Shown: positions 3,192-42,800 of the stretch, in pieces
Layout: each line of letters opens with the position of its first letter
How positions within the stretch are numbered: position 1 is the stretch's first letter
Assembly (NCBI GenBank): GCA_902615715.1
Contig: CACMQA010000002.1
Coordinates: forward strand, 62,001 to 126,000
DNA length: 64,000 bases
Direction of reading: 5' to 3'
From: an uncultured Pelagibacteraceae bacterium
GTDB taxonomy: Bacteria > Pseudomonadota > Alphaproteobacteria > Pelagibacterales > Pelagibacteraceae
The notes under the pieces: generated by a model
Databases searched by the model: none
What the model was told of the DNA's origin: nothing
The model's input: the letters and a program-made list of their open reading frames with translations, nothing else
Translations under genes and position numbers: made by a program

Positions 3192-4382
<1,191 letters not shown>

Positions 4383-4414
4383 TTATAATAATTTATAAAT
4401 ACTAATAACATATA

Positions 4415-6586
4415 ATGCAAAATACCTATCAAGAAAAATTAGCTGACCTAGAAGTTAATAACTCTAAAAAAATTAAGAAGTTAGAGGGAGGTATTAACTT
4501 TAAAATCAAAAGTGATTTTCAACCTAGCGGTGACCAGCCGGAGGCTATAAAGCAAATATTAAAAAACTTAAAAGATAATAAGCAAGAACAAGTGCTTTTG
4601 GGGGTTACTGGATCGGGTAAAACTTTTACAATGGCAAAAGTTATCGAAAAGGCTAATAGGCCAGCTCTTATTCTAGCGCCAAATAAAACTTTAGCTGCTC
4701 AATTGTACGGAGAGTTTAAAAGTTTTTTCCCAGACAATGCTGTAGAATATTTTGTGTCATATTACGATTACTACACTCCAGAAGCATACGTTCCTAGATC
4801 TGATACTTATATAGAAAAAGAAGCTTCAATTAATGAGCAAATTGATCGTATGAGACACTCGGCAACAAGATCTTTGTTGGAAAGAGATGATGTAATTATT
4901 GTTGCGAGTGTATCATGTATTTATGGTTTAGGTTCTGTAGAGGCGTACTCAAAAATGACAATTACTTTAAAAAAGAATTATGAGTATGAGCGGGATGATT
5001 TAATCAGAGCTTTTATAAACTTGCAGTACAAAAGAAATGATCAAAATTTTTTTAGAGGCACTTTTAGAGTAAGAGGAGAAAATTTAGAAATTTTTCCATC
5101 ACATTTGGAAGATAGAGCTTGGAGAATAAGTTTTAATTTAAATAAATTAGAAAAGATTGAAGAATTTGATCCACTTACTGGTGATAAAACAAATGATTAC
5201 TCCATTATAAAAATTTACGCTAATAGCCACTACATAACTCCAAAACCAACTATCGATCAAGCTATTAGACAAATAAAATCTGAATTAGCTGAAACTTTAA
5301 AAAAACACAGAGAGAATAATAAACTTTTAGAAGAGCAGCGACTTAGAGAAAGAACTAAATTTGATTTAGAAATGATTGAAGCGACTGGAACTTGTGCAGG
5401 TATCGAAAATTATTCAAGGTTTTTATCTGGACGAAAAGCTGGAGAACCTCCGCCTACTCTATTTGAATATTTTCCAGATAACGCAATTATATTTGTAGAT
5501 GAAAGTCATGTAACTGTTCCTCAGTTAAATGGAATGTATAAAGGAGACCGTACAAGAAAGAGCACCTTGGCTGAGTACGGATTTAGACTACCTTCCTGTA
5601 TGGACAATAGACCTTTAAAATTTGAGGAGTGGGATTTGATGAGAACACAAACTGTATTCGTGTCTGCTACCCCAGGGCCATGGGAACTCAAACAAACCAG
5701 CAATAAACATATTGATCAAATCATTAGACCAACAGGTTTAATAGATCCACCAGTAGAAATAAGGCCAGCTAAAACTCAGGTGGACGATCTTATGCATGAA
5801 GCAAAAGAAATAGTGAAAAAAGGTTATAGAGTTCTTGCCACAACACTTACTAAAAAGATGGCAGAAGATCTTACTGAATACCTTCACGAAAATGGTCTTA
5901 AAGTAAGATACATGCACTCCGACATAGATACTTTAGAAAGAATTGAAATTATTAGAGATTTAAGAATGGGGGTATTTGATATTCTTGTTGGTATAAATTT
6001 ATTGAGAGAGGGACTAGATATACCTGAGTGCGCTTTGGTGGCAATATTAGATGCAGATAAAGAAGGTTTTTTAAGATCTGAAACTTCTTTAATACAAACT
6101 ATTGGAAGAGCTGCTCGTAACATAGATGGTAAAGTAATTTTGTATGCTGATAAAGTCACAAAAAGTATTGATAAAGCTATAAAGGAAACTGAAAGAAGAA
6201 GAAATAAGCAGTTAGAATACAATAAAAAAAATGGGATAACTGCAGAGTCTGTAAAAAAAGAGATCAGCGATATATTAGAGTCAGTCTATGAAAAAGATTA
6301 CGTAAAAATTAGTGAAGGCTCAAATGTAGGCGGAAACTTAAAAAAGCATCTAAAAGCATTAAATAGAAAGATGAAAGAAGCTGCATCTAATTTGGAGTTT
6401 GAGGAAGCTGCAAAATTAAGAGATGAAATGAGAAAATTGGAAGCAAGTGAACTTGAAATAACTTTAAATCCAAAAATTTCTCAATATAATTTAAAAAGTA
6501 AGGTTTACCCAAAAGGGAGGTCAACGATGGGAATGCCAGGCACAAAACCTAAAAAGGCAATAAAAAAATGGAAGCCAAAAAAATAA
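4415..6586 (+). CDS. uvrB: Excinuclease ABC subunit B
   Basis: The damage-verifying helicase-like subunit of nucleotide excision repair. The Walker A motif GVTGSGKT is at 63-70 and the DNA-gripping beta-hairpin region [15 protein letters not shown] at 116-130. The Walker B variant VDESH and helicase motifs follow. A C-terminal UVR helix pair for UvrC contact is recognisable in [13 protein letters not shown] and onward. At 723 residues it is longer than typical (about 670): roughly 24 extra residues come before the usual GDQPEAI region and the tail is basic. No later in-frame ATG offers a better start. It overlaps the next gene by 19 bp. Confidence 0.96.
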
Positions 6587-7323
6587 TTATTACTGGTGGA
6601 GCTACAAGGATCGGTGCTGCAATTGCAAAAAGCTTAGTAAATTATGATACTAAAATGGTTATTCATTTTAATAAATCTAAAAGTAGTGCTTTAAAATTAA
6701 AAAAAGAACTAGAGGAGCTTGGCGTTGAGACTTTTCTATTAAAAGCAGATTTAAATAATTTCGATCAGACTAACAATTTAATTAAGACTGCACATAAGAA
6801 GATGAAAGGCTTAGATTGTCTGATTAATAATGCTTCTATTTTTGAAAATGATAATCTTGAAAATTTTTCTGAAAAATCGTTTTCAAAACATATTAATGTA
6901 AACTTAAAAGCTCCTGCTATGTTGACTCGAAATTTTTACAAATTATTGAAAAATAAAGAAGGATGTATTGTAAATATTATTGACCAAAGAGTTGAAAAAT
7001 TAACTCCATTTTTTTTCTCATATACTTTAAGTAAATCTTCTTTAGCGGTTTTAACAAAAACCTCAGCTATGAAACTGGCCCCCAATATTAGAGTCAATGG
7101 TATCTCACCTGGCCCTACTTTAAAAAACAAAAGACAATCTGAGAAACATTTTAAAAAACAATGGAAATCTATAATATTAAGAAAAAAAGTGGATTTAGAA
7201 AATATTTGTAATGGAGTAAAATTTCTTATTGAAAGTGAAAGTATAACTGGAGAAATAATTAATATTGATGGTGGACAAAGGCTTGCATGGCAAACACCTG
7301 ATATAATAAATACTAAAGAATGA
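6568..7323 (+). CDS. Short-chain dehydrogenase, probable FolM/pteridine-reductase type
   Basis: A 251-residue classical SDR. The NADP-binding TGGATRIG lies at 9-16, where the arginine after the glycine loop is typical of pteridine reductases. NNAS is at 87-90, and the catalytic YxxxK is Y152-K156 in YTLSK. The C-terminus carries a GEIINIDGG motif. It lies immediately upstream of folB, overlapping it by 4 bp. That context supports a dihydrofolate or dihydromonapterin reductase (FolM-like), which could help supply tetrahydrofolate. The exact substrate is inferred from context and one motif only. Confidence 0.75.
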
Positions 7324-29407: not shown

Positions 29408-29436
29408 TTGACCCTTGATTCAATTTCGGGTTGAAT
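29408..29436 (+). promoter_or_regulatory. Candidate ccrM promoter overlapping a GANTC site
   Basis: TTGACC at 29408-29413 resembles a -35 element. A weak -10-like TTGAAT lies 17 bp downstream at 29431-29436 and overlaps the GAATC at 29433-29437. A start would then fall near the ATG at 29443, giving a leaderless message. The -10 match is poor, so this is tentative. Confidence 0.25.
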
Positions 29437-29439
29437 CAA
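29415..29439. repeat. Perfect 9-bp inverted repeat made of two GANTC sites before ccrM
   Basis: TTGATTCAA (29415-29423) and TTGAATCAA (29431-29439) are exact reverse complements separated by TTTCGGG. Each arm contains one GANTC, the site methylated by CcrM. A third site, GAATC at 29385-29389, lies just upstream. The repeat ends 3 bp before the ATG at 29443 and covers an alternative TTG start. It may act as a methylation-sensitive operator in DNA or a hairpin in RNA. Confidence 0.75.
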
Positions 29440-29442
29440 AAA

Positions 29443-30516
29443 ATGTTTAAATTTTCCAACCAAATCGTTAATGGAGATTGTTTAAAGGAAATAAAAAAAA
29501 TTCCTGATAAGTCTTTTGATTTAGTTTTTGCTGATCCACCTTACAACATGCAAATAGGAGAAAAATTAACTCGTCCAGATGCAAGTAAAGTGAATGGGGT
29601 AAATGATAAGTGGGATCAATTTAATAGTTTTAAACATTACGATGAATTCTGCATTGCTTGGCTAAATGAATGTAAAAGAATTCTAAAAGATAATGGAAGT
29701 ATTTGGGTAATAGGATCATACCATAATATTTTTAGATTAGGTTACCACTTGCAAAATTTAGATTACTGGTTACTTAACGATGTTATCTGGAGAAAAAATA
29801 ATCCTATGCCAAATTTTAGAGGAACTAGATTTACTAATGCACATGAAACTCTTATCTGGGCTTCAAAAAATAAAAAATCAAAATATACGTTTAATTACCA
29901 ATCGTTAAAATGCTTAAATGATGACTTGCAGATGAGATCAGACTGGACATTACCTATTTGCAACGGAAAAGAGAGACTAAAGAGAAACGGAAAAAAAATT
30001 CATTCTACACAGAAACCAGAAGCGCTTTTACATAGAATTATTTTAGCTACTACAAATAAAGGTGATACCATCTTTGATCCATTTTTAGGTACTGGTACAA
30101 CAGCAGTGGTAGCTAAAAAATTAGGAAGAAGATACTTTGGTATAGAAAAAGACAAAAATTATTTTAAAGCTGCTGATGAACGAATAAAAAAAGCTAAGGT
30201 AATTGAGGATGAATATTTAGATACTATTGAAAACAATAAGTCAAAACCAAGAATACCTTTTGGTTCTCTTGTAGAACTAGGAATATTGAAGCCAGGTACT
30301 ACCCTATTTGATCCTAAAAAGAAGATTAATGCTAAAATTATGGCTGATGGAAGTATTAAATATAAAGAGTCAGAAGGTTCAATTCATAAAGTGGCAGCAA
30401 CAATTATGGGAGCAGAAAGCTTTAATGGTTGGACTTATTGGCATTGTAATATTAATGGATCCACTGTTGTAATTGATAGTCTAAGAAAAAAATTTATCTC
30501 AGAAACTAAAGCTTAA
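29443..30516 (+). CDS. ccrM: CcrM-type adenine-N6 DNA methyltransferase (GANTC)
   Basis: A beta-class methyltransferase. The catalytic DPPYN comes first, then HSTQKPEALL, then the SAM-binding DPFLGTGTTAVVAKK. The C-terminal 90 residues (from about SLVELGILKPGTTLF to VVIDSLRKKF) form the RAMA-like domain that sets CcrM apart from restriction methylases. In Alphaproteobacteria it methylates GANTC once per cell cycle. No restriction enzyme is adjacent, which fits an orphan regulatory enzyme. I chose the ATG at 29443 (357 residues); a TTG at 29431 would add MNQK and lie within the GANTC hairpin. Its stop shares a TTAA with the next gene. Confidence 0.92.
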   Translation: MFKFSNQIVNGDCLKEIKKIPDKSFDLVFADPPYNMQIGEKLTRPDASKVNGVNDKWDQFNSFKHYDEFCIAWLNECKRILKDNGSIWVIGSYHNIFRLGYHLQNLDYWLLNDVIWRKNNPMPNFRGTRFTNAHETLIWASKNKKSKYTFNYQSLKCLNDDLQMRSDWTLPICNGKERLKRNGKKIHSTQKPEALLHRIILATTNKGDTIFDPFLGTGTTAVVAKKLGRRYFGIEKDKNYFKAADERIKKAKVIEDEYLDTIENNKSKPRIPFGSLVELGILKPGTTLFDPKKKINAKIMADGSIKYKESEGSIHKVAATIMGAESFNGWTYWHCNINGSTVVIDSLRKKFISETKA

Positions 30517-31646
30517 TTCTTATAAACTTTACCTAAGTAATTTTTTATAAAAAATTTACGTTTTACCAAAAACTTCAAAAATATATTTCTAACGTTTTGC
30601 ATAATTTTGCTTGAAAAGTGAAATGCAAAGAAATTAAAATTTGATCTGCTTCTAATAATTTTTGCCCTTTTTGATCTAATCTCAAAATAGTTATTTTCTT
30701 TATCAAGCTTATCTTTTGTCAATAAATTAAATATTTCAAAAGCACTTTCTATAGATTGTCCAGCACCTTGTGCGAGTGTTGGTAAAAATCCATTAAAGGC
30801 GTCTCCAATATAAAATACCTTTTTATTAGAGGAGGGAATAATTTTTGGTGTAAAATATAAAGGCCATGTTTTTATTTCATTCTCAAATATATTTTTAAAT
30901 TTAGGATTTTGTTTTAATATTATTTCTTGAACTAACTGTTTTACGTTGTCAGGCTCATATTTTTTACATCTCATTATACAAACCATATTAAGTTCCTTTT
31001 TTTTATTTATTGGATAAAGAACAATATGACTATTACTTCCAAGCATTAAACTTATATTCTCTTCATTTATATCGAATTCAGATTTTGATTTTAGTATTAC
31101 TCTCGCTGCAATAGCTTTTTTAAATCTTGGCTCATTTTTTTTTGTTTCAAAGAATGATCTAGTGTTTGAAAATATTCCATCAGCAGCAATAACAAAATCT
31201 ACTAAATCATTTGTGTTGTCATCAAATTTAATAAGAACTTTGTCTTTAAGCTCAGAGACTTCTTTCATTTTTTTTCCAAATCTTAAATGCTGAGTATAAA
31301 TATCTTCTTTCAAAAGTTCGATTAAAGTAGATCTTTGAAGTGTTGTATATTTTGCTTCAGGGCTATTAAACTTAGATAAGTTTAAATCACATATTTTTTT
31401 ATTTTGAATATTATAAAAATCTATTGTTTTAGGGTTAAATATTTTTTCATTATTAATTTTATTGAAATTAATTTGATTCAAAATTTTAATGCTATTAGTT
31501 GCTAATTGAATACCGTAACCCTCTTCTAAAGACAAACTTTCCTCCCTTTCATAAACCATAAATTCATGATCGGTATATTTTTTTAATAAGTTCGCAAGAG
31601 TTAATCCTGCTATACCGGCGCCAATGATTGCTATTTTTTTTTTCAT
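30513..31646 (-). CDS. FAD-dependent aromatic-ring hydroxylase-like monooxygenase
   Basis: The 377-residue flavoprotein has the class A hydroxylase plan. The N-terminal FAD site is IIGAGIAGLTLANLL, DG (FVIAADGIFSNTR) is in the middle, and the second FAD motif is YIGDAFNGFLPTLAQGAGQS. Relatives include UbiH-type ubiquinone hydroxylases and salicylate or 3-hydroxybenzoate hydroxylases. The substrate is not readable. Ubiquinone synthesis is possible, but the GYGIQLATNS region looks more like the small-aromatic hydroxylases. It overlaps mutY by 1 bp and may be co-transcribed with it. Confidence 0.82.
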   Translation of the reverse strand: MKKKIAIIGAGIAGLTLANLLKKYTDHEFMVYEREESLSLEEGYGIQLATNSIKILNQINFNKINNEKIFNPKTIDFYNIQNKKICDLNLSKFNSPEAKYTTLQRSTLIELLKEDIYTQHLRFGKKMKEVSELKDKVLIKFDDNTNDLVDFVIAADGIFSNTRSFFETKKNEPRFKKAIAARVILKSKSEFDINEENISLMLGSNSHIVLYPINKKKELNMVCIMRCKKYEPDNVKQLVQEIILKQNPKFKNIFENEIKTWPLYFTPKIIPSSNKKVFYIGDAFNGFLPTLAQGAGQSIESAFEIFNLLTKDKLDKENNYFEIRSKRAKIIRSRSNFNFFAFHFSSKIMQNVRNIFLKFLVKRKFFIKNYLGKVYKN

Positions 31647-32644
31647 TAAAATAAATTTGAAATTTGTCTAAATATATTCTTTGTGAAGCTAGGTATAAAT
31701 TCTTTTTTATCGTCTAAAGAGTGCCAACTATATTCTGATGGGATCTTATTGGAGAACTTATAATATAAATTTATATTTAATTTTAAATTAGATATAGAAT
31801 TATTATAGTTGTTTAACAACTTCCAGCTTCTGGTATTATTTTCTTTTGACTCTTTAATCATAGGTAAATTAAAATTTTTTAAAAATCCAAAGTCGTTTTT
31901 TTTAGTTAAAGCAATTTGTCTCTTTTTATTTAAAAAACAAAAAATATCATAATTTTTATTTTTAAACATTTTTTTAGATGTAGTTCTAATTTTTTTAGAT
32001 GATTTAAAATACTTACAGGTTTTGTTCAAACAGCAAACGACACATTTTGGGTCTTTTGGCCTACAGATTAACGCTCCAAATTCCATTAGTGCTTCAACAA
32101 AATCCGCGTTTCTTTTATTGTTGAAAAGCATCTTGGAGTTAAAATTAACTAATTTTTTAAAATCAATTTTAGACTCTTTTTTATTTAAATTTCTTGCTAA
32201 TACTCTCTTTACATTTCCATCTACAGCTATTCTGGGCTGATCGTGTACTAAGCCTAGCAAAGCGCTTCCGGTATAATCGCCGATACCTGGAAGTTTTTTT
32301 ATTTCATCTAAAGTTTTTGGTAGTTTTCCCTCATAAAGATTTATTAGTTGGTTTGAACATGCATAAAGATTTCTAGCTCGTCTGTAATAACCTAGCCCTT
32401 CCCACATTTTTAATATTTGTTTTTCATTACTTTTTGAGAGTGACTCAAGCGTTGGAAATTTTTTAGTAAATTTTTTAAAGTAAGGTAATACGGTTTTTAC
32501 TTGCGTTTGCTGCAACATAAATTCACTCAATAACCTATAATAAAGCTTTTTTGGCGACTTTTTGCTCACACGCCATGGTAGATCGCGTTTGCTATTATCG
32601 TACCATGCTAGAATTTTTTTTGATAAAGTCGAATTTAGATGCAT
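31646..32644 (-). CDS. mutY: A/G-specific adenine DNA glycosylase
   Basis: Removes adenine mispaired with 8-oxoguanine. The helix-hairpin-helix core is clear: SEFMLQQTQV with the catalytic Glu, then LPGIGDYTGSALL and the catalytic Asp in AVDGNVKRVL. The iron-sulfur loop has C-x6-C-x2-C-x5-C (CRPKDPKCVVCCLNKTC) with one extra cysteine. The C-terminal MutT-like domain is diverged, giving 332 residues. Its ATG at 32644 abuts the ATG of the divergent DUF721 gene. Confidence 0.94.
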   Translation of the reverse strand: MHLNSTLSKKILAWYDNSKRDLPWRVSKKSPKKLYYRLLSEFMLQQTQVKTVLPYFKKFTKKFPTLESLSKSNEKQILKMWEGLGYYRRARNLYACSNQLINLYEGKLPKTLDEIKKLPGIGDYTGSALLGLVHDQPRIAVDGNVKRVLARNLNKKESKIDFKKLVNFNSKMLFNNKRNADFVEALMEFGALICRPKDPKCVVCCLNKTCKYFKSSKKIRTTSKKMFKNKNYDIFCFLNKKRQIALTKKNDFGFLKNFNLPMIKESKENNTRSWKLLNNYNNSISNLKLNINLYYKFSNKIPSEYSWHSLDDKKEFIPSFTKNIFRQISNLF

Positions 32645-33121
32645 AGTAAAAATAATAATAAATCACAAACCTTCATTCAAGGGCTCAGGCCTTTTTCTAG
32701 CTCTATACCTAAGACTTTAAAAAAACACCTTAGAAAAGGTGGATACAATTATTCTAATATAGTGGATAATTGGACAAAAATCGTAAGTAAAAAAATTGCT
32801 GATGCTTGTTACCCAATTACTGTGAAAATGGGAAAAGAAATGAGAGACGGAACTTTAATATTAAATGTTATACATGGCAAAGAGGTAGAAGTTGAGTACG
32901 AAAAAAATGAAATCATGGATAAAATAAATAGTTTTTTTGGATATAAATGTATCAGTAACGTAGTGCTAAAAATTGTGCAAGATACAGTCAAACCAAAAAA
33001 GAGTTTTACAAAGATAAAAAATTTTTCAAAAATTGAGGATAAAATGAGTAAAGTTAATGATGAAACGTTAAAAAGATCTCTTAATAATTTTCTAAAGGCA
33101 TTTAATGAAAGAAATGATTAG
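32639..33121 (+). CDS. DUF721 (DciA-like) protein
   Basis: A 160-residue basic protein. The DUF721 core is seen in TLKKHLRKGGYNYSNIVDNW and in LILNVIHGKEVEVEY. Some DUF721 proteins (DciA) recruit the replicative helicase, and alphaproteobacterial members carry the same N-terminal fold. This one is shorter than many and its tail is low in complexity. It is the first gene of the forward run leading to smc and the ATP synthase genes. The ATG at 32639 abuts the mutY start head to head, and no alternative start fits better. Confidence 0.78.
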   Translation: MHSKNNNKSQTFIQGLRPFSSSIPKTLKKHLRKGGYNYSNIVDNWTKIVSKKIADACYPITVKMGKEMRDGTLILNVIHGKEVEVEYEKNEIMDKINSFFGYKCISNVVLKIVQDTVKPKKSFTKIKNFSKIEDKMSKVNDETLKRSLNNFLKAFNERND

Positions 33122-33698
33122 ATTATTTTATAAAACTATTTTCTTTTTTTTATTTTTTTTTTCTATTGAAGCAGAAAGTAAAATTTTAAGCATAGGAAGT
33201 TCAGATGCAAAGGTTACTGTAAAAGTTTTTTCCTCACTAACATGTCCACATTGTGCTAACTTTCATACTGCTGTATTTGAGAAATTAAAAAAAGATTATA
33301 TCGATAAAGGTTTGGTAAAATTTGAACACCATGCTTTTCCATTAGATCTAGCAGCATTAAATGCTGAGGTTATAGTAAGATGTTCTTCAAACAATGAGAA
33401 AAAATTTAAATTATTAGATCAAATGTACATCAAACAAAAAGTATGGGCTGTTGGCTCTGATATTAATAAAATTAATGAACTAATAAAAAAAATAGGTTCA
33501 GAGTTAGATTTATCAGAAAACAATATGGACGATTGTTTAAAAAGTAGTGATGCCCAAGATATTATTCTAAATCAAAGAATTGAGGCTCAAAAAAAATATA
33601 AAATTGAGTCAACACCAACTATAATAGTAAATGAAAAAAAGTATTTAGGTAAAGTTAATTATGAAAGTTTCAAAAAAATTATTGAAAAAAATTTATAG
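33105..33698 (+). CDS. DsbA-like thiol:disulfide oxidoreductase
   Basis: A 197-residue thioredoxin-fold protein with an N-terminal signal (IFFFLFFFSIEAES) and the redox motif CPHC in SSLTCPHCANF. The cis-proline region STPTIIVNEKK is near the C-terminus. It should act in the periplasm, oxidising cysteines of exported proteins. The periplasmic domain of cytochrome oxidase subunit II, with its two CuA cysteines, is one possible client encoded nearby. The order DUF721-dsbA-smc is typical of Alphaproteobacteria. It overlaps the upstream gene by 17 bp and abuts smc. Confidence 0.88.
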   Translation: MKEMIRLFYKTIFFFLFFFSIEAESKILSIGSSDAKVTVKVFSSLTCPHCANFHTAVFEKLKKDYIDKGLVKFEHHAFPLDLAALNAEVIVRCSSNNEKKFKLLDQMYIKQKVWAVGSDINKINELIKKIGSELDLSENNMDDCLKSSDAQDIILNQRIEAQKKYKIESTPTIIVNEKKYLGKVNYESFKKIIEKNL

Positions 33699-36143
33699 AT
33701 GAAATTTAAGCAGCTAGATATAACAGGTTTTAAATCGTTTTCAGATAAAACATCTTTTTTAATTGAAAATGGATTAACTGGGATTGTTGGTCCTAATGGT
33801 TGCGGAAAGTCAAATATTGTAGAAGCCTTACGGTGGTGTATGGGAGAAAACTCTGCGAAAAGCATGAGAGGAAGTGGTATGGAAGATGTTATTTTTTCGG
33901 GAACTTCAAATAGAGCATCTAAAAATATTTCTGAAGTTTCTTTGTTGTTGGACAACCAAAGTAAAGAATGTCCTGCTCAATATAAAGAATTTGATGAGAT
34001 TACTGTTAGAAGAAAAATTGAAAAAGATAAAGGGTCAAAATATTATGTTAATGATAAAGAAGTAAGAGCAAGAGACGTACAAACTTTATTTGCTGATTTA
34101 TCTACAGGAGCACATTCACCGTCGCTAATAAGTCAAGGAAAAATAGGTCAGCTTGTAACTTCAAAACCGATTGAAAGAAAATCTATTCTTGAAGAGGCGG
34201 CAGGGATTTCAGGAATTCATGCTAGAAGACAAGAAGCGGAAACTAGATTAAATGCAGCAGAGAATAATTTAAAACGAGCTGATGAACTTAAAAAACAACA
34301 ACAAAAACAACTTGATAATCTTAAAAAGCAGGCTGAAGAAGCAACAAGATATAAAGAAATATCTAGAGATATAAAGAGAGCAGAAGCGGGTTTATACTAT
34401 TTAAAAATCAGAGAAATAGAAAAAGATAAAAAAAAAATAGCTGAAAAACTTAATGAGCTTGAAGATGAAATAAGCGCTGTCAATATAGATTTCAATCATA
34501 ACAGTACCCTTTTAGAGGAAGAAAATAAAAAACTTGCTCCACTTAGAGATAAAAAAATGGAAAGCGCCGCAAGATTACAAAAACTAAATTTAGATATGGC
34601 CAGTCTAGATGAAGAGGAAGCTAGAGTAAAATCATTACAAGAAAAACTAGAAAAATCAATTAGAACTGTAGTGTCAGATCTTGATAGAGAAAAAAGTATT
34701 TCACTGGACGCGGACCTCAATGAAAAGAGGATTTCTAAAGAGAAAGAAGAGCTTCTCAAAACTGAAAACGAATTAACTAAAGCTGAGACAAATTCTTCAA
34801 ATGAGCTTAAAGAGTCTAAATCTAATTTAAATCTTCTGCAAACTCAGTTGGAAGATATGTTAAATAAAATAGAGAGAGATATTGATGAAAATAAAAAAAT
34901 CACAAAAAAAATATTTATTGATCTTAAACAATTAGTAAAAAAAATTACCTCTTCGCAAGAGGAATATGCTGAAAGATATGGTAAAGATAAATCAATACAA
35001 AACGACTCAATAAAAAGAAAAGAAAGAATTAAAAATATTGATGTGGAGTTAGAAAATTGGAGAAATTTAAAATCTAACTCAGAAAAAATGATATTTGAAT
35101 TAACTGATCGTAAAAATAAATTACAAGCAGAGTTAACAGAGAACCAAAAAAATCCTGAGCGAATAGCAACCTCGAAAGGTCAAAACCTTCAAAATTTAGA
35201 AAACACAAAAAAAAGAAATGAGGAAATTGAAAACGAACTTATAGAAGCAGACAAAAAATATAATTCTGTAAATGAAAATATTAAAGAAATACAACTTAAA
35301 CTCTCCGAACTTAAAGAGAATAAAGCAAGAAATGAAGCAACTATAGAAGGAATAGATAATAGAAAGAAAGATCTATTATATTCTGTAAAAAATGAATTAA
35401 GTATTCATAGTGAAGATGAACTTTTACCAAAGTCAGATTTAAGTCAAGTTTCACCAGATAAACTTCCTACATTAGAAGAACAATCTAAAAAATCAGATAA
35501 AATTAAAAAACAAAGGGAGTCTTTAGGTTCAGTAAATCTTAGAGCAGATGAAGAAACAAAAAAATATGAAACAGAAATAAAGAAAATGGAAGATGACAGG
35601 GCCGATCTTTACTCTGCTATAGTCAAATTAAAAACTAGTATTGAAGAATTAAATCAAAAAGGAAGGGAACGATTACTGGATGCTTTTACTAAAGTTAACA
35701 GAAAATTTAATGAGGTGTATACAAAATTATTTAATGGGGGTACCGCTAAAATAGAATTAGTTGATTCTGAGGATCCTTTAGAAGCTGGATTGGAAATGTT
35801 TGTTTCGCCTCCAGGAAAAAGATTGCAGTCAATTACATTATTATCAGGAGGGGAACAAGCTTTGACTGCACTGTCATTAGTTTTTGCAGTATTTTTAGTA
35901 AACCCTTCTCCTATTTGTGTTTTAGATGAAGTAGATGCCCCATTAGATGATGCTAATGTCACTCGTTTTTGTGGATTATTAGATGAGCTTACTAAAATAA
36001 CGAACACAAAGTTTATTATTATCACTCATCATGCGCTTACAATGTCTAGAATGCACAGATTATATGGTGTTACAATGGCAGAACAAGGTGTGAGCCAATT
36101 AGTTTCTGTTGATTTACAAAAAGCAGAAGAGTTAGTTGCTTAA
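33699..36143 (+). CDS. smc: Chromosome partition protein SMC, short form apparently lacking the hinge
   Basis: The ATPase head is complete: Walker A GPNGCGKS at 31-38, the Q-loop region, signature LSGGEQ at 715-720, Walker B ICVLDE at 739-744 and the switch histidine in ITHHALT. Between them lies only coiled coil (about 170-640). At 814 residues it is some 330 shorter than common bacterial SMCs. I cannot find the globular hinge (the usual KYE-x-AIE-x-ALG block) where the two coils meet, near 395-450. The frame is uninterrupted. The alphaproteobacterial order dsbA-smc supports orthology. Confidence 0.9.
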   Translation: MKFKQLDITGFKSFSDKTSFLIENGLTGIVGPNGCGKSNIVEALRWCMGENSAKSMRGSGMEDVIFSGTSNRASKNISEVSLLLDNQSKECPAQYKEFDEITVRRKIEKDKGSKYYVNDKEVRARDVQTLFADLSTGAHSPSLISQGKIGQLVTSKPIERKSILEEAAGISGIHARRQEAETRLNAAENNLKRADELKKQQQKQLDNLKKQAEEATRYKEISRDIKRAEAGLYYLKIREIEKDKKKIAEKLNELEDEISAVNIDFNHNSTLLEEENKKLAPLRDKKMESAARLQKLNLDMASLDEEEARVKSLQEKLEKSIRTVVSDLDREKSISLDADLNEKRISKEKEELLKTENELTKAETNSSNELKESKSNLNLLQTQLEDMLNKIERDIDENKKITKKIFIDLKQLVKKITSSQEEYAERYGKDKSIQNDSIKRKERIKNIDVELENWRNLKSNSEKMIFELTDRKNKLQAELTENQKNPERIATSKGQNLQNLENTKKRNEEIENELIEADKKYNSVNENIKEIQLKLSELKENKARNEATIEGIDNRKKDLLYSVKNELSIHSEDELLPKSDLSQVSPDKLPTLEEQSKKSDKIKKQRESLGSVNLRADEETKKYETEIKKMEDDRADLYSAIVKLKTSIEELNQKGRERLLDAFTKVNRKFNEVYTKLFNGGTAKIELVDSEDPLEAGLEMFVSPPGKRLQSITLLSGGEQALTALSLVFAVFLVNPSPICVLDEVDAPLDDANVTRFCGLLDELTKITNTKFIIITHHALTMSRMHRLYGVTMAEQGVSQLVSVDLQKAEELVA

Positions 36144-36151
36144 GATTAATA

Positions 36152-36436
36152 ATGACTATTCCAGAAGACTTTAAAACTCGCCTAAAAATTGCAAAGTCAA
36201 AGTTAAAAAATCAAGTTCTATCAGATGGAGAAAAAAGGGGGTCATTTATGGGTAATGCTTTCAAATTAGGTACGGAACTTGTAGCAGCTGTTGCTGTTGG
36301 GACAATAATTGGGTTTATTTTAGATAGTTGGTTTGATACTAAACCTTGGTTAATAATAATTTTCTTTTTTTTGGGTGCTGCTGCAGGAATATTAAACGTA
36401 ATTCGCACTGCAAAGCAGATGCAGAAAGAGGAGTAA
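36152..36436 (+). CDS. atpI: ATP synthase F0 assembly protein I / AtpZ-like
   Basis: A 94-residue protein with two membrane helices (LVAAVAVGTIIGFILDSWF and WLIIIFFFLGAAAGILNVI), the layout of AtpI/AtpZ proteins that assist c-ring assembly or magnesium supply. It opens the F0 gene group and is 8 bp after smc and 13 bp before atpB, leaving no obvious separate promoter. Confidence 0.85.
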   Translation: MTIPEDFKTRLKIAKSKLKNQVLSDGEKRGSFMGNAFKLGTELVAAVAVGTIIGFILDSWFDTKPWLIIIFFFLGAAAGILNVIRTAKQMQKEE

Positions 36437-36449
36437 TTCGAGGGAATTT

Positions 36450-37184
36450 ATGGCAAATAATCCGATGCAACAATTTAGTGTCCACAAAATCGGACCTGAA
36501 ATAAAGATCGCTGGAATAGATTTATCATTCACAAACGCAAGTTTATTCATGGTAATTAGCGCATTAACTATTTTATTATTTTTATTTTTAGGAACTAAAG
36601 AAAAAAAAATTGTACCAAGTAAAATTCAATTAATCGCCGAAATGTTTTATTCATTTGTGGCCAAAATGATTAATGATACAGCTGGTTCAAAAGCTAAACC
36701 TTATTTTCCTTTTATATTTAGTTTATTTATGTTTGTGCTATTTTGTAATATGGTGGGAATGTTGCCTTATTCTTTTACCGTTACTAGTCATATAATTGTA
36801 ACTTTGATAATGGCCTTATTTATTTTTATAGCAGTTACAATTATTGGGTTTGTTAAACATGGATTTAAGTATTTGAGCATATTTGTTCCAAGCGGTGTTC
36901 CTGCGGTGCTATTACCTTTGATAACGATTATTGAAATCATTTCTTACTTGAGTAGACCGGTAAGCTTATCGGTTAGATTGTTTGCAAACATGATGGCGGG
37001 GCATACAATGTTAAAAGTATTCGGTGGATTTGTCATTAGTTTAGGATTTCTAGGTGGTTGGTTACCACTTGGTTTTTCAGTTGCGCTTACAGGTTTGGAA
37101 ATCTTAGTAGCATTTCTTCAAGCTTATGTTTTTGCAATATTAACCTGCATCTATTTAAATGATGCATTAAATTTACATCATTAA
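36450..37184 (+). CDS. atpB: ATP synthase F0 subunit a
   Basis: The stator subunit that forms the two half-channels for protons. The 244-residue protein has five to six helices. The essential arginine lies in SRPVSLSVRLFANMMAGH and the C-terminal helix is typical (FLQAYVFAILTCIYLNDAL). The preceding SD-like element (GAGGAGTAATTCGAGG) may be responsible for translation starting after atpI. Confidence 0.96.
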   Translation: MANNPMQQFSVHKIGPEIKIAGIDLSFTNASLFMVISALTILLFLFLGTKEKKIVPSKIQLIAEMFYSFVAKMINDTAGSKAKPYFPFIFSLFMFVLFCNMVGMLPYSFTVTSHIIVTLIMALFIFIAVTIIGFVKHGFKYLSIFVPSGVPAVLLPLITIIEIISYLSRPVSLSVRLFANMMAGHTMLKVFGGFVISLGFLGGWLPLGFSVALTGLEILVAFLQAYVFAILTCIYLNDALNLHH

Positions 37185-38523: not shown

Positions 38524-39993
38524 ATGGCAAAAAAAACAACTGTTATTGGTTCAGGTTTTGGAGGTCTAGCTGCTGCGCTTAGATTAAAAGCTAAAGGTCA
38601 TAAAGTTACTTTAGTAGAAAAACACTCTGACCTTGGTGGTCGCGCTAGAGTGTTTAAAAAAGATCAGTTTATATATGACGGCGGTCCAACAGTAATTACC
38701 GCCCCGTATCTATTTGAGGAATTGTTTTCGTTATTCAATAAAAATATATCTGACTACGTAGAAATAGTGCCCTTAGATTTGTGGTACCGTTTTGTATTCA
38801 GTAATGGAGATACATTTGATTACAATGGTGATGACAAATCTATGGAAGAGCAAGTTAAAAAATTTAACCCTTCTGATTATGATGGATATAAAAATTTAGT
38901 AAATTTTACTGAAAAAATTTTTGATAAAGGCTTTACAGATTTATCAGATAAGCCTTTTAATAATTTGGTTTTTATGATGAAACAAATTCCATCATTATTA
39001 AAATTAAAAAGTTATAAATCAGTCTACAGCTTGGTTTCGAACTATATATCTAATGAAAAATTAAGAAGAGTATTTAGTATGCACCCTCTTTTAGTAGGTG
39101 GAAATCCTTTCAGTACGACTTCGATATATGCATTAATTTTATTTTTAGAAAAAAAATGGGGTATTCACTACTCAATGGGTGGGACAGGAAGCGTTGTTAA
39201 GGCTTTAGAGAAACTAATGATCGAGGAAAATATCAAAATTATTAAAGACGCTGAGGTCACAGAAATACTTACAGAAAATAAAAAGGTAAAAGGTGTTAAG
39301 ATTAATAATTCAAAAATAATTAATAGTGATTATGTAATTTGTAATTCTGACCCACCAAATGTTTACAACAATTTAATAAAATCAAAGGAAGATTATGATT
39401 TTTTATTTAAACAAAAAATGAAAAGGATGGATTATTCAATGGGATTATTTGTTTATTATTTTGGTTCTAAAAAAAAATACACCGATGTTGCACATCATAC
39501 AATTTATTTTGGAGAGTCTTATGAAAAACATCTCGATAAAATCTTTGAAAAGAAAATACTTTCTGAAGACATAAGCTATTATTTACATCGACCATCTGCA
39601 TCAGACCCTAGTATGGCCCCAGAAGGCCAAGATGCATTTTATGTATTGGTTCCAGTTCCAAATAATTTATCCAAAGTTAAATGGATTGAAGAAGGTGACA
39701 AATTTAAAGATTTAGTTTTAGATAAAATGGATAAAACTGTTCTGCCTGGCATTAAAGAAAATGTGGTAAGTGATTTTTATTTAACGCCTGATTACTTCGA
39801 AATTGATCTAGCAACTCTTTATGGATCTGGATTCTCAATTCAGCCAAAATTTTCTCAGTCAGCTTATTTTAGATTTCATAATCAATCTGAAATATATAAA
39901 AACTTATTCTTTGTGGGTGCCGGTACACACCCAGGAGCTGGAATGCCTGGTGTTCTTTCATCAGCGAAAGTTTTAGATAACCTATTTCAATGA
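38524..39993 (+). CDS. crtI: Phytoene desaturase (lycopene-forming)
   Basis: A CrtI-type flavoprotein of 489 residues that turns phytoene to lycopene by repeated desaturation. The N-terminal FAD site is VIGSGFGGLAAALRLKAKG followed by LGGRARVF. The C-terminal bacterial phytoene desaturase signature is FVGAGTHPGAGMPGVLSSAK. It starts the crtI-crtB-crtY-blh run, whose product should be retinal. It overlaps crtB by 4 bp. Confidence 0.96.
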   Translation: MAKKTTVIGSGFGGLAAALRLKAKGHKVTLVEKHSDLGGRARVFKKDQFIYDGGPTVITAPYLFEELFSLFNKNISDYVEIVPLDLWYRFVFSNGDTFDYNGDDKSMEEQVKKFNPSDYDGYKNLVNFTEKIFDKGFTDLSDKPFNNLVFMMKQIPSLLKLKSYKSVYSLVSNYISNEKLRRVFSMHPLLVGGNPFSTTSIYALILFLEKKWGIHYSMGGTGSVVKALEKLMIEENIKIIKDAEVTEILTENKKVKGVKINNSKIINSDYVICNSDPPNVYNNLIKSKEDYDFLFKQKMKRMDYSMGLFVYYFGSKKKYTDVAHHTIYFGESYEKHLDKIFEKKILSEDISYYLHRPSASDPSMAPEGQDAFYVLVPVPNNLSKVKWIEEGDKFKDLVLDKMDKTVLPGIKENVVSDFYLTPDYFEIDLATLYGSGFSIQPKFSQSAYFRFHNQSEIYKNLFFVGAGTHPGAGMPGVLSSAKVLDNLFQ

Positions 39994-40841
39994 AAAATAA
40001 TTTATTAAAAAAACATGCTAAATCTTTTTATTGGGCGAGTTTTTTTCTGTCGAGCAACACTCTAGATAAATGCTCATCTCTATATAATTTCTGTAGAACC
40101 TTAGACGATATAGTTGATGATGATAATAAAAATCTGAATATAAAAAAAGAAATTTTTTCAAAATTTAAAATGGATTTTGAAAATAAAAGTCTTAACAATC
40201 AAATTATAAAAAATATGTGGTCAATTATTGATAGTGAAAATATTCCTAAACAAATAGTATTAGACTTATTTGATGGAGTTGAGACAGACTTAGAAGAAAA
40301 AGTAGTAATCAATTCAAAAAAAGATTTACTTGTTTATTCTTATAGAGTTGCTGGAACAGTTGGATTAATGATGTCAAAAATTCTAAAAGTCAAAAATAAA
40401 GAAGCCCTAAAAGGTGCGATTGATCTAGGGATAGCGATGCAGCTTACTAACATTGCCCGAGATGTTTGCGAAGATAAAGAACGTAATAGACAATATGTAA
40501 GACACGACTTTTTCTCAATTCAGAAAATAATTAAAGAGTCACAAATATTTTATGAAAATTCATTTAGCTCTATTCGCAATATACCGTTTAGATCAAGATT
40601 TTCAGTTCTCGTTGCTAGGCGTGTCTACAGAAAAATAGGTGACAATATTCTTAAACAAAAAAATATAGATAATTACAACAAAGCTGGCAAAATCTATGTT
40701 CCAACATTTGAAAAGCTAATTCAGACCTTTTTATCTATTTTTGACTTGATTAAATTATTATTCATCAAAAATTTAAATCACGACAACCAAGCAAATCATA
40801 ATATTCTAGATCAAGAGATTAATTTAAATGAAAGAATTTGA
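39990..40841 (+). CDS. crtB: Phytoene synthase
   Basis: Joins two geranylgeranyl diphosphates head to head to phytoene. The 283-residue enzyme carries two aspartate-rich motifs, DDIVDDD and the second in QLTNIARDVCEDKERNRQYV (written here as the family signature region). No geranylgeranyl diphosphate synthase (crtE) is encoded beside it, so the substrate must come from a polyprenyl synthase elsewhere. It overlaps crtI and crtY by 4 and 14 bp. Confidence 0.95.
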   Translation: MKNNLLKKHAKSFYWASFFLSSNTLDKCSSLYNFCRTLDDIVDDDNKNLNIKKEIFSKFKMDFENKSLNNQIIKNMWSIIDSENIPKQIVLDLFDGVETDLEEKVVINSKKDLLVYSYRVAGTVGLMMSKILKVKNKEALKGAIDLGIAMQLTNIARDVCEDKERNRQYVRHDFFSIQKIIKESQIFYENSFSSIRNIPFRSRFSVLVARRVYRKIGDNILKQKNIDNYNKAGKIYVPTFEKLIQTFLSIFDLIKLLFIKNLNHDNQANHNILDQEINLNERI

Positions 40842-41895
40842 TTATATAATTATTGGTGGTGGATGCGCGGGTCTATCTTTAGCTTATGAACTTGAAATTA
40901 ATGATAAACTAAAAGAGAAAACTTTAGCAATTATTGAAACTCGAGCAGAATATAAAAGAGACAAAACGTGGTCTTTCTGGAAAGTTTTTAATCATAACTT
41001 TGATGATTGTGTAATTAAAAGTTGGAACAATTTTACAATAAACTCTCCAGATAGTTCACATGAATTATCTAATAAAAAATTTCCCTATCAAAGCATTGAT
41101 AGTGGTAAATTTTATAAAAAAATAAATTCCAAGCTCTCTTCAAATTCCAATATAAGTTTTTTTAAAAATCTTAATGAAATTAAGTCAGAAAATTCCATAA
41201 TTTTTAATAGTGTTCATGAAAAAGAATTAGATAAATCTAAATTGTGGCAACACTTTCAAGGTATCGAAATAGAAACATCTAAAAATATATTTGATGAAGA
41301 AATAATAAATCTTATGGATTTTAATTGTGATCAGAGAAATGAAGTTCATTTTTTTTATACTTTACCATTCAGTAAAAATAAAGCTTTAATTGAAACAACT
41401 TGGCTTTCAGATTTAGAGGATCAAAGCTTAATGGATTACGATCTTCAATTAGAAAATTATATTAAAAATAATCTAGGTATTAAAAACTATAAAATAAATT
41501 ATACTGAAAGAGGCGCTATACCTTTATTTCATCCATTAATTAAAAATAATAAAAAAACTATCTATATTGGATCTGCTGGCGGAATGACGAGATTAAGCAC
41601 AGGATATACTTTTTTGAATATTCAAGAACATAGTAAATATATTGTTGAAAACATTAATAAAATTGAAAAAATAAAAATGTACAATATAGGAAAGAAATAT
41701 CAGTTTTTGGATAAAATATTTTTAAGAGTTTTAAAAAACAATCCAGATAAAATGCCAAAAATATTTTTTGAAATGTTTAAAGCTTCATCAAGCTGTGTAA
41801 TAAAATTTTTATCTAATAAAAGTAATATCTTTGAAGATATAAATATTATAGGAAGAATGCCAAAATTAATTTTTATGAGAGCTCTATTTCATTAA
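40828..41895 (+). CDS. crtY: Lycopene beta-cyclase
   Basis: A CrtY-type flavoprotein of 355 residues that closes both ends of lycopene to give beta-carotene. It has the N-terminal dinucleotide site YIIIGGGCAGLSLAYEL, the RDKTWSFW motif, IETTW (the counterpart of the FLEET catalytic motif) and ERGAIPLFHP. The GSAGGMTRLSTGYTF block is also typical. It overlaps crtB by 14 bp and blh by 1 bp. Confidence 0.94.
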   Translation: MKEFDYIIIGGGCAGLSLAYELEINDKLKEKTLAIIETRAEYKRDKTWSFWKVFNHNFDDCVIKSWNNFTINSPDSSHELSNKKFPYQSIDSGKFYKKINSKLSSNSNISFFKNLNEIKSENSIIFNSVHEKELDKSKLWQHFQGIEIETSKNIFDEEIINLMDFNCDQRNEVHFFYTLPFSKNKALIETTWLSDLEDQSLMDYDLQLENYIKNNLGIKNYKINYTERGAIPLFHPLIKNNKKTIYIGSAGGMTRLSTGYTFLNIQEHSKYIVENINKIEKIKMYNIGKKYQFLDKIFLRVLKNNPDKMPKIFFEMFKASSSCVIKFLSNKSNIFEDINIIGRMPKLIFMRALFH

Positions 41896-42800
41896 TGGAA
41901 AAGATAAATTTTAAACACTCACTTATATTTTTCAATTTTTGTATTTTAATAAGTCCATTCTACTTTATGTTAAATTATGAGCCGATAATATTTTGTTTAA
42001 TCTTAATATTAATTTTAGGAATTTCGCATGGAGCATTAGATAATTTAAAAGGAAAAAAACTTTTATATTCATTTGGTTATAGATCCCTTTTATCTTTTTA
42101 TTTTGTATATATTTTAATCTCTATCTTAATAGTTTTTTTGTGGGTATTTTATCCTAATACTGTTTTATTATTATTTCTTGTTGTGGCGGCTTATCACTTT
42201 GGTAAGGAAGATACGGTATTCTCTTTAAAGAAAAAATTTATAATGGCTGAGTTTTTGTACTTTTTAAAAGGATCAGCGGTAATTTTTGCTCCGTTATTAT
42301 TTCAGAGAGAGAAAACAAACGAAATATTTGGAATTTTAAACTTTAATGTTTTTGAGTATCAAATATTTACTAATCAATTCTTAATAATTTTTTTGTGTTT
42401 AAGCTTTTTATCATCTCTCGTTATCTCTAATAAAAAAAAGGTTGACTTTAAAGCATTGATGATAATGGATTTTTTTTCGTTAATTATATTAAATCTCTTT
42501 TTAACTCCTGTTTTGGCTTTCACAATTTATTTTTGCTTTCTTCATTCTATAAGGCATTCAATTACATTAATCTTCGAATTAGATAAGTCTTTTAGATCAG
42601 GACTAAAGAAATTTATTAACAAAGCTATTCCATTAACTTTTGTAACTGGTGTGATGTTTTTAATAGCGTTATATTTTCTTAAAAGCTCCTATAAGCTCGA
42701 TGAGGCTATTTATAAGGTAATATTTATTGGTTTGGCGTCTCTGACTTTTCCGCATATATTGCTCGAATACTTGTTAGAAAAGAATGAAAAAAGATCTTAA
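41895..42800 (+). CDS. blh: Beta-carotene 15,15'-dioxygenase, Brp/Blh family
   Basis: An integral membrane enzyme that splits beta-carotene to two retinals, the rhodopsin chromophore. The 301-residue protein has some eight hydrophobic helices. The histidines proposed to bind iron are present in ISHGALDN, AYHFGKED and FLHSIRHS. Together with crtIBY it shows the cell can make retinal, which strongly implies a proteorhodopsin gene elsewhere; none is in this window. It overlaps ispH by 17 bp. Confidence 0.92.
   Translation: MEKINFKHSLIFFNFCILISPFYFMLNYEPIIFCLILILILGISHGALDNLKGKKLLYSFGYRSLLSFYFVYILISILIVFLWVFYPNTVLLLFLVVAAYHFGKEDTVFSLKKKFIMAEFLYFLKGSAVIFAPLLFQREKTNEIFGILNFNVFEYQIFTNQFLIIFLCLSFLSSLVISNKKKVDFKALMIMDFFSLIILNLFLTPVLAFTIYFCFLHSIRHSITLIFELDKSFRSGLKKFINKAIPLTFVTGVMFLIALYFLKSSYKLDEAIYKVIFIGLASLTFPHILLEYLLEKNEKRS

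Follow-up and report, generated by a model that had tools for sequence, protein, structure and literature searches.

We analysed a stretch of 64,000 nucleotides (hereafter the window) of the contig CACMQA010000002.1, which belongs to an uncultured Pelagibacteraceae bacterium of the SAR11 group, and we focused on its smc gene. This gene encodes an intact SMC protein that has complete head motifs and no hinge, a domain shared by SMC proteins and regarded as indispensable for closing the ring and loading DNA. The initial annotation, made without any database search, had described a single unbroken frame of 814 residues with both head halves complete, and this was confirmed: the translation gave 814 residues followed by the stop codon, and the Walker A, ABC signature and Walker B motifs were conserved at the places listed in Table 1 across 37 aligned rows, with I739 of Walker B nearly invariant and V741 variable. 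Regarding the family, the protein scored 696 bits with the NCBIfam model TIGR02168 (SMC_prok_B, cut-off 567.35) and Pfam SMC_N was found in it. The NCBIfam Rad50 and RecN models remained far under their cut-offs (38 bits against 408 for RecN), and sequence searches matched RecN and Rad50 weakly. The modelled heads matched solved Smc heads, some of them with ScpA (VIA-align Z of 35.6 for 5xns and 35.2 for 5xg3), and also 3zgx, which is titled as a kleisin-N SMC interface (Z 30.7). By its ABC head motifs, its score above the family cut-off, its head fold and its orthology, the window protein is a bacterial SMC; what Pfam, hidden Markov model (HMM), hhalign and AlphaFold2 all failed to find in it is the central globular hinge domain. 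Furthermore, it has no cysteine between residues 91 and 740 and therefore no CxxC zinc hook.

The Pfam hinge model (SMC_hinge, PF06470), which the initial annotation had proposed as a check, gave no match in the window SMC up to an E value of 1. Taken alone, this model does not settle the question. It gave no match in Caulobacter, a member of its control set, and the Caulobacter SMC has a hinge. It also missed the hinge-bearing alphaproteobacterial SMCs L072, L078 and L081, and reached only 17.6 bits in L165, under its cut-off of 22.5. Pfam alone cannot call a hinge loss because it misses true alphaproteobacterial hinges, and we dropped it as the decisive test.

We therefore relied on an alphaproteobacterial hinge HMM of 130 positions, built from the aligned smc genes of 16 other alphaproteobacteria. 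Its 16 training proteins scored 102-164 bits in leave-one-out runs, and 24 additional SMC entries reached 54-178 bits. The survey comprised 147 distinct SMC proteins, each with a frame of over 700 residues that holds both head motifs; genes with an internal stop or with shorter frames were excluded, and one protein cut at its end (L157) was counted. The HMM matched 40 of them at 54-181 bits, among them a short-armed SMC of 881 residues. These 40 entries, among them the 16 training proteins, correspond to 38 genes, since L197 and L198 are fragments of genes already in the training set. The remaining 107 proteins had no match, the highest score being 6.2 bits, and they consist of 102 SAR11 SMCs, four SMCs of the family f24 and one from a gammaproteobacterium. 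The comparison of profiles by hhalign gave the same picture, with a probability of at most 0.3% for alphaproteobacterial or gammaproteobacterial hinges against SAR11 short forms, SAR11 long forms, f24 or the gammaproteobacterial protein. As positive controls, the gammaproteobacterial hinges were linked to the alphaproteobacterial hinges and to canonical alphaproteobacterial SMCs at 97-98% and, more weakly, to L078/L165 at 24.7%; the alphaproteobacterial hinges against canonical SMCs and L078/L165 gave 99.9-100%, a comparison in which rows are shared and which is not independent. Thus, the purpose-built HMM, hhalign and AlphaFold2 agree with the earlier claim that the hinge and the distal coil are missing, and there was neither a significant hinge score nor a predicted globular hinge fold at residues 350-500. 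Moreover, the loss is lineage-wide: the hinge HMM matched none of the 102 distinct SAR11 SMCs.

A hinge supplied in trans by another gene was ruled out by scanning whole genomes with the alphaproteobacterial hinge alignment. None of 11 SAR11 genomes gave a hit above noise (the lone stray, in G026, had 12 bits and an E value of 0.11), and the same scan recovered the hinge in all three control alphaproteobacteria, two of which contributed rows to the query alignment.

The single-chain AlphaFold2 model of the window SMC, obtained from the 37-row alignment, had a mean predicted local distance difference test score (pLDDT) of 76.6 and a predicted TM-score (pTM) of 0.46. It places three helices in the arm, the last two joined by the apical turn given in Table 1, with a tip free of strands; the arm is thus predicted to end in a plain helical hairpin. 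The arm spans around 230 residues from head to tip; in L072, a canonical alphaproteobacterial SMC, around 330 residues separate head and hinge. The model of the 857-residue long form adds an apical helix (422-444), flanked by helices 258-418 and 448-529. The mean pLDDT of this model was 71.5, with a confidence near 60 on either side of the apical helix. A Foldseek search of viral structures with the long-form model contributed nothing further: the best 50 matches were SMC-, Rad50- or SbcC-like or unnamed and had low TM-scores. As a separate observation, one hinge-less protein among the 107 (L034, a SAR11 SMC) carries a CHKC motif, that is a zinc-hook-like CxxC, at residue 414 in its arm tip. 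Its relatives L239 and L240 keep only the first cysteine, and a third relative (L241) is cut before the tip. A replacement of the hinge by a zinc hook was ruled out, because this single motif is not conserved in the two relatives with a readable tip.

The 102 hinge-less SAR11 SMCs came from 12 of the 14 genera seen in the family of the window, from three of the four genera of a sister family (f154), and from named records, that is, loci labelled Pelagibacteraceae or Pelagibacterales. In the family of the window smc was matched in 130 of 147 genomes (52 of the 53 good ones) and in 14 of 14 genera, with complete frames of 798-891 residues among the matches listed. In the sister family the frames had 863-873 residues, one cut gene apart, and three of 14 genomes gave no SMC match. 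In other alphaproteobacteria, the SMC mostly had 1,140-1,220 residues among the matches listed, and 72 of the 240 genomes in the class-wide sample had no SMC match. The SAR11 lengths fall into tight classes (798, 814, 857-859, 863-864 and 880-881 residues), and parsimony on the SAR11 tree required seven changes between short and long apices. The apical helical segment (for instance residues 391-475 of L131) is repeatedly either there or missing within SAR11 genera, as if it had been exchanged or deleted on many occasions.

The smc gene of the window stands in the local order HhH-GPD (MutY-like), dciA, dsbA-like, smc, atpI and atpB (Table 1). Among 55 SAR11 smc loci, MutY was found in the flanks of 52, DciA of 52, DsbA of 54, AtpI of 51 and AtpB of 51, and among 22 hinge-bearing loci in 18, 10, 20, 12 and 12 respectively, the flanking sequence being cut in some loci. 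Both f24 loci had DciA, DsbA, AtpI and AtpB and neither had MutY, and none of the five was found around the gammaproteobacterial gene. In a tree of the head columns the SAR11 SMCs formed one clade among the alphaproteobacterial heads, with 98 in a Shimodaira-Hasegawa-like approximate likelihood ratio test (SH-aLRT) by a quick method. Neighbourhood and tree both mark the window gene as orthologous to the ordinary smc of alphaproteobacteria.

Table 1. Features of the smc locus in the window (positions in the window; residues refer to the SMC protein)
Feature	Position	Strand	Evidence
MutY-like HhH-GPD glycosylase gene, syntenic marker	31646..32644	-	Pfam PF00730
dciA (DUF721) gene, syntenic marker	32639..33121	+	Pfam PF05258
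DsbA-like thioredoxin-fold gene, directly upstream of smc, syntenic marker	33105..33698	+	PF13462/PF01323
smc gene, hinge-less SMC, 814 residues plus stop	33699..36143	+	translation, TIGR02168, alignment, hinge HMM, AlphaFold2
N-terminal ATPase head half, residues 1-165	33699..34193	+	PDB Smc head matches; median dN/dS 0.042
Walker A GPNGCGKS, residues 31-38	33789..33812	+	invariant in 37/37 aligned rows
N-terminal arm helices, residues 171-246 and 255-396	34209..34886	+	AlphaFold2 model
Apical turn, residues 397-402, site of the missing hinge domain	34887..34904	+	AlphaFold2; no hinge by HMM/hhalign
C-terminal arm helix, residues 403-567	34905..35399	+	AlphaFold2 model
C-terminal ATPase head half, residues 666-814	35694..36140	+	Smc head matches; median dN/dS 0.019
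ABC signature LLSGGEQ, residues 714-720	35838..35858	+	714-719 invariant, Q720 nearly so
Walker B ICVLDE, residues 739-744	35913..35930	+	C740, L742, D743 and E744 invariant
atpI-like gene, syntenic marker	36152..36436	+	Pfam PF09527
atpB (F0 subunit a), syntenic marker	36450..37184	+	Pfam PF00119

The initial annotation had also suggested looking for scpA and scpB in the rest of the genome. No match to ScpA or ScpB was found in the window's own genome, whereas both are kept in the lineage. Of the 117 genomes searched in the order, 98 had a ScpA match, as did 70 of the 76 good ones, and in the two loci inspected (G036 and G003) scpA and scpB were adjacent and intact. In the window's genome the scpAB locus is cut by the start of contig C9, which falls in its scpB end; nothing else in the 8.4-kb query region matched either, a gene read by eye as argS included. 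The absence is therefore best read as an assembly gap. The ParB_N domain was present in all 13 genomes tested, 11 of them from SAR11, the window's own included. A loss of ScpA and ScpB accompanying the loss of the hinge was ruled out by the frequency of ScpA in the order together with the contig break. ScpA plus ScpB, which a genome with an Smc-ScpAB condensin has to encode, are found at the level of the lineage and were not seen in the window's genome. According to these matches, the kleisin is not lost together with the hinge, and the lineage has kept ScpA, ScpB and ParB. Regarding the lack of matches elsewhere, neither SMC nor ScpA was matched in several alphaproteobacterial genomes, among them five (G151, G152, G156, G159 and G163) that are 88-99% complete. 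A scan of the window for the parS consensus gave no match with up to two mismatches.

The ratio of non-synonymous to synonymous substitution rates (dN/dS) was calculated on 19 genes of the same genus, from 20 loci. The remaining locus (L008, genome G044) has one in-frame TAG in smc, which may be an assembly error or decay, and was dropped. The median dN/dS was lowest in heads and neck (0.019-0.043), followed by the arms (0.057-0.066), the C-terminal joint/neck region (0.083) and the apex (0.158). Because synonymous sites were frequently saturated, 88-153 of the 171 pairs could be used, and the order of the regions is more reliable than the figures themselves. The smc gene is under purifying selection and the apex is its fastest-evolving part. 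In canonical alphaproteobacterial SMCs (n=33) the hinge had 46% identity, above the 29-30% of the arms. In contrast, the apex had 36% identity against 49-51% in the arms of the SAR11 short forms (n=27), and 24% against 38-42% in the long forms (n=29). Since the SAR11 apex is less conserved than the arms, unlike the canonical hinge, the sequences do not point to a conserved dimer interface at the apex.

The explanation that we prefer, with a probability of roughly 0.55 as a whole, is that an ordinary alphaproteobacterial smc lost its hinge and about the distal third of both arms in the SAR11 ancestor, and that the product would still drive an SMC-ScpAB condensin as its ATPase. A pair of SMC proteins would be joined by ATP-driven engagement of their heads and by ScpA, which would connect the neck of one SMC with its partner's cap; this link between neck and cap is the canonical arrangement of the kleisin. 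The heads and the compartment between heads and kleisin would grip the DNA, in place of a large ring closed by the hinge. The complex appears to be a naturally occurring SMC-ScpAB condensin whose ring has lost its hinge side. The earlier statement that dimerisation in the usual way is impossible follows from the missing hinge and distal arms; how the SAR11 SMC dimerises instead, and the different DNA loading that was also proposed, can only be inferred, and the remaining components look conventional, since SAR11 keeps ScpA, ScpB and ParB. A stronger version, which we put forward only tentatively, is that there is no apical dimerisation at all, so that the complex would be an open-ended DNA clamp of heads and kleisin, and that the hinge was lost independently in several streamlined marine lineages: SAR11 and, perhaps separately, the MarineAlpha6-type family, a marine gammaproteobacterium and Actinobacteria. 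Under streamlining, the hinge would then be dispensable.

Several points weigh against the loss of the hinge with heads and kleisin as the only joints. The confidence of the window SMC model is moderate, and the extra apical helix of the long form could be a dimerisation module. Three good family genomes besides the window's own and two good sister-family genomes had no ScpA match, and PF02195 (ParB_N) is not specific to the chromosomal ParB, as it also matches in E. coli. In addition, abolishing hinge dimerisation inactivates the Smc of B. subtilis, according to PMC5344682, so another apical dimerisation may be needed. The main rival reading, possible if rather doubtful, is that the arm tip of the SAR11 SMC is a new dimerisation module, in which two hairpin tips, or the helix-turn-helix caps at the apex of the long form, would form a helical bundle in place of the hinge and keep the ring closed. 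That paper also reports that a zinc hook can replace the B. subtilis hinge and that the fold of the dimerisation domain is not critical; moreover, the predicted extra helix, the tight length classes and the constraint that the apex still keeps would fit such a module. Nevertheless, the apex is the fastest-evolving part and less conserved than the arms, short and long apices switch repeatedly, and there is no conserved CxxC.

A hinge-less SMC might also be no longer a condensin but a largely monomeric ATPase of DNA repair, similar to Rad50 or RecN, which likewise have coiled-coil arms without an SMC hinge and which the window protein weakly matches. We consider this unlikely, because the protein is above the SMC_prok_B cut-off and far below those of Rad50 and RecN, the smc neighbourhood is kept, and ScpA, ScpB and ParB are retained. 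That the hinge is present and merely too divergent for detection is very improbable. PF06470 does miss real alphaproteobacterial hinges, and three of 30 gammaproteobacterial proteins that have a gammaproteobacterial hinge scored at most 2 bits with the alphaproteobacterial HMM; however, hhalign linked the hinges of both classes at 97.8% and the SAR11 proteins at no more than 0.3%, and the strand-free predicted tip leaves no room for a domain of more than 100 residues. We give as little credit to an artefact (a frameshift, an assembly deletion or a pseudogene) or to a hinge encoded in trans. An in-frame stop is present in one of the 20 same-genus loci, but the same architecture recurs across the genera of both families and the named records, the gene is under purifying selection, and there is no hinge elsewhere in the genomes.

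Hinge-less SMCs were also found outside SAR11. In the family f24 (MarineAlpha6-type) they have 803-817 residues (L168 'SP38', L169 'MarineAlpha6_Bin4', L043 and L044), and ScpA was matched in one of the two genomes searched. This family is on a separate long branch of the tree, and one loss shared with SAR11 was neither shown nor rejected by the tree comparison (approximately unbiased test, p 0.47). The gammaproteobacterial case (L173, gamma proteobacterium AG-447-O13, 4001-6718) is an SMC of 906 residues. It scored 0.9 bits with a gammaproteobacterial hinge HMM whose training rows had 133-171 bits, and the 15 gammaproteobacterial SMCs held out when half of the rows were left aside had 108-168 bits; all 30 gammaproteobacterial comparison SMCs have the hinge. 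In a phylum-level sample searched with the gammaproteobacterial protein, 268 of 398 genomes matched, with frames above 1,100 residues among the matches listed, and neither a second short gammaproteobacterial SMC nor near relatives of L173 appeared among these. Two alphaproteobacterial SMCs (L078 and L165, 878-881 residues) keep the hinge on very short arms and can serve as a natural control.

Compared with the bacterial Smc-ScpAB, the SAR11 SMC shares the ATPase head, the neck, the antiparallel arms, the neighbourhood and the partners ScpA, ScpB and ParB, and it differs by the missing hinge and the shorter distance from head to tip. Rad50/SbcC also joins an ABC head to a long coiled coil without an SMC hinge, and has a CxxC zinc hook that is missing in SAR11. 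RecN is likewise an SMC-like ATPase, whose coiled coil is short and has no SMC hinge. The Smc of B. subtilis tolerates some shorter arm lengths or a replaced hinge (PMC5344682); the mini-Smc and the Smc with a zinc hook described there keep a dimerisation domain, and none is recognisable in SAR11. Its survey of arm lengths relied on alignment to place the hinges, so that hinge-less SMCs would be left out of it. The closest likeness is with the hinge-less SMCs of marine Actinobacteria, described from a metagenomic gene cluster (Sussfeld et al. 2025, PMC12153180); its authors found no regular SMC next to the hinge-less one in the single-cell genomes that they screened. By the published description, both come from abundant marine bacteria and consist of a head and an antiparallel coil with neither hinge nor CxxC; the actinobacterial one belongs to another phylum, and kleisin partners go unmentioned in the SMC section of the paper, as do SAR11, Pelagibacter and Alphaproteobacteria in its main text. 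A common descent of the hinge loss with Actinobacteria looks unlikely, because the SAR11 SMCs sit among alphaproteobacterial smc genes by tree and neighbourhood.

Within the literature searched (subscription journals, preprints and supplements lay outside the search), the hinge-less kind is known since 2025, only the marine Actinobacteria were found reported before, and no report of a hinge loss in the SAR11 SMC was found; PMC7858055 (SAR11, SMC, chromosome segregation) and PMC7203096 (Pelagibacter, hinge domain) are, in the parts seen, unrelated to it. Its spread across SAR11 with ScpAB and ParB kept, and its presence in at least one gammaproteobacterium, appear unreported there. SAR11 are among the commonest bacteria of the ocean, and a hinge-less SMC with the usual partners questions how essential the hinge is. 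If SAR11 uses SMC-ScpAB in this form, natural variation separates the role of heads and kleisin from what the hinge adds. The SAR11 short and long forms, with the hinge-bearing short-armed L078/L165 as outgroup, make a comparison set for models of loop extrusion and DNA entrapment, and they bear on chromosome segregation in streamlined marine bacteria.

Finally, a carotenoid/retinal gene run lies downstream of the smc locus (38524-42800), with an FAD amine-oxidase-type oxidoreductase (phytoene-desaturase-like by eye), a squalene/phytoene synthase, a lycopene cyclase and a beta-carotene dioxygenase. One gene away from the MutY-like gene there is a DNA methylase with a RAMA domain (29431-30516), CcrM-like by eye.
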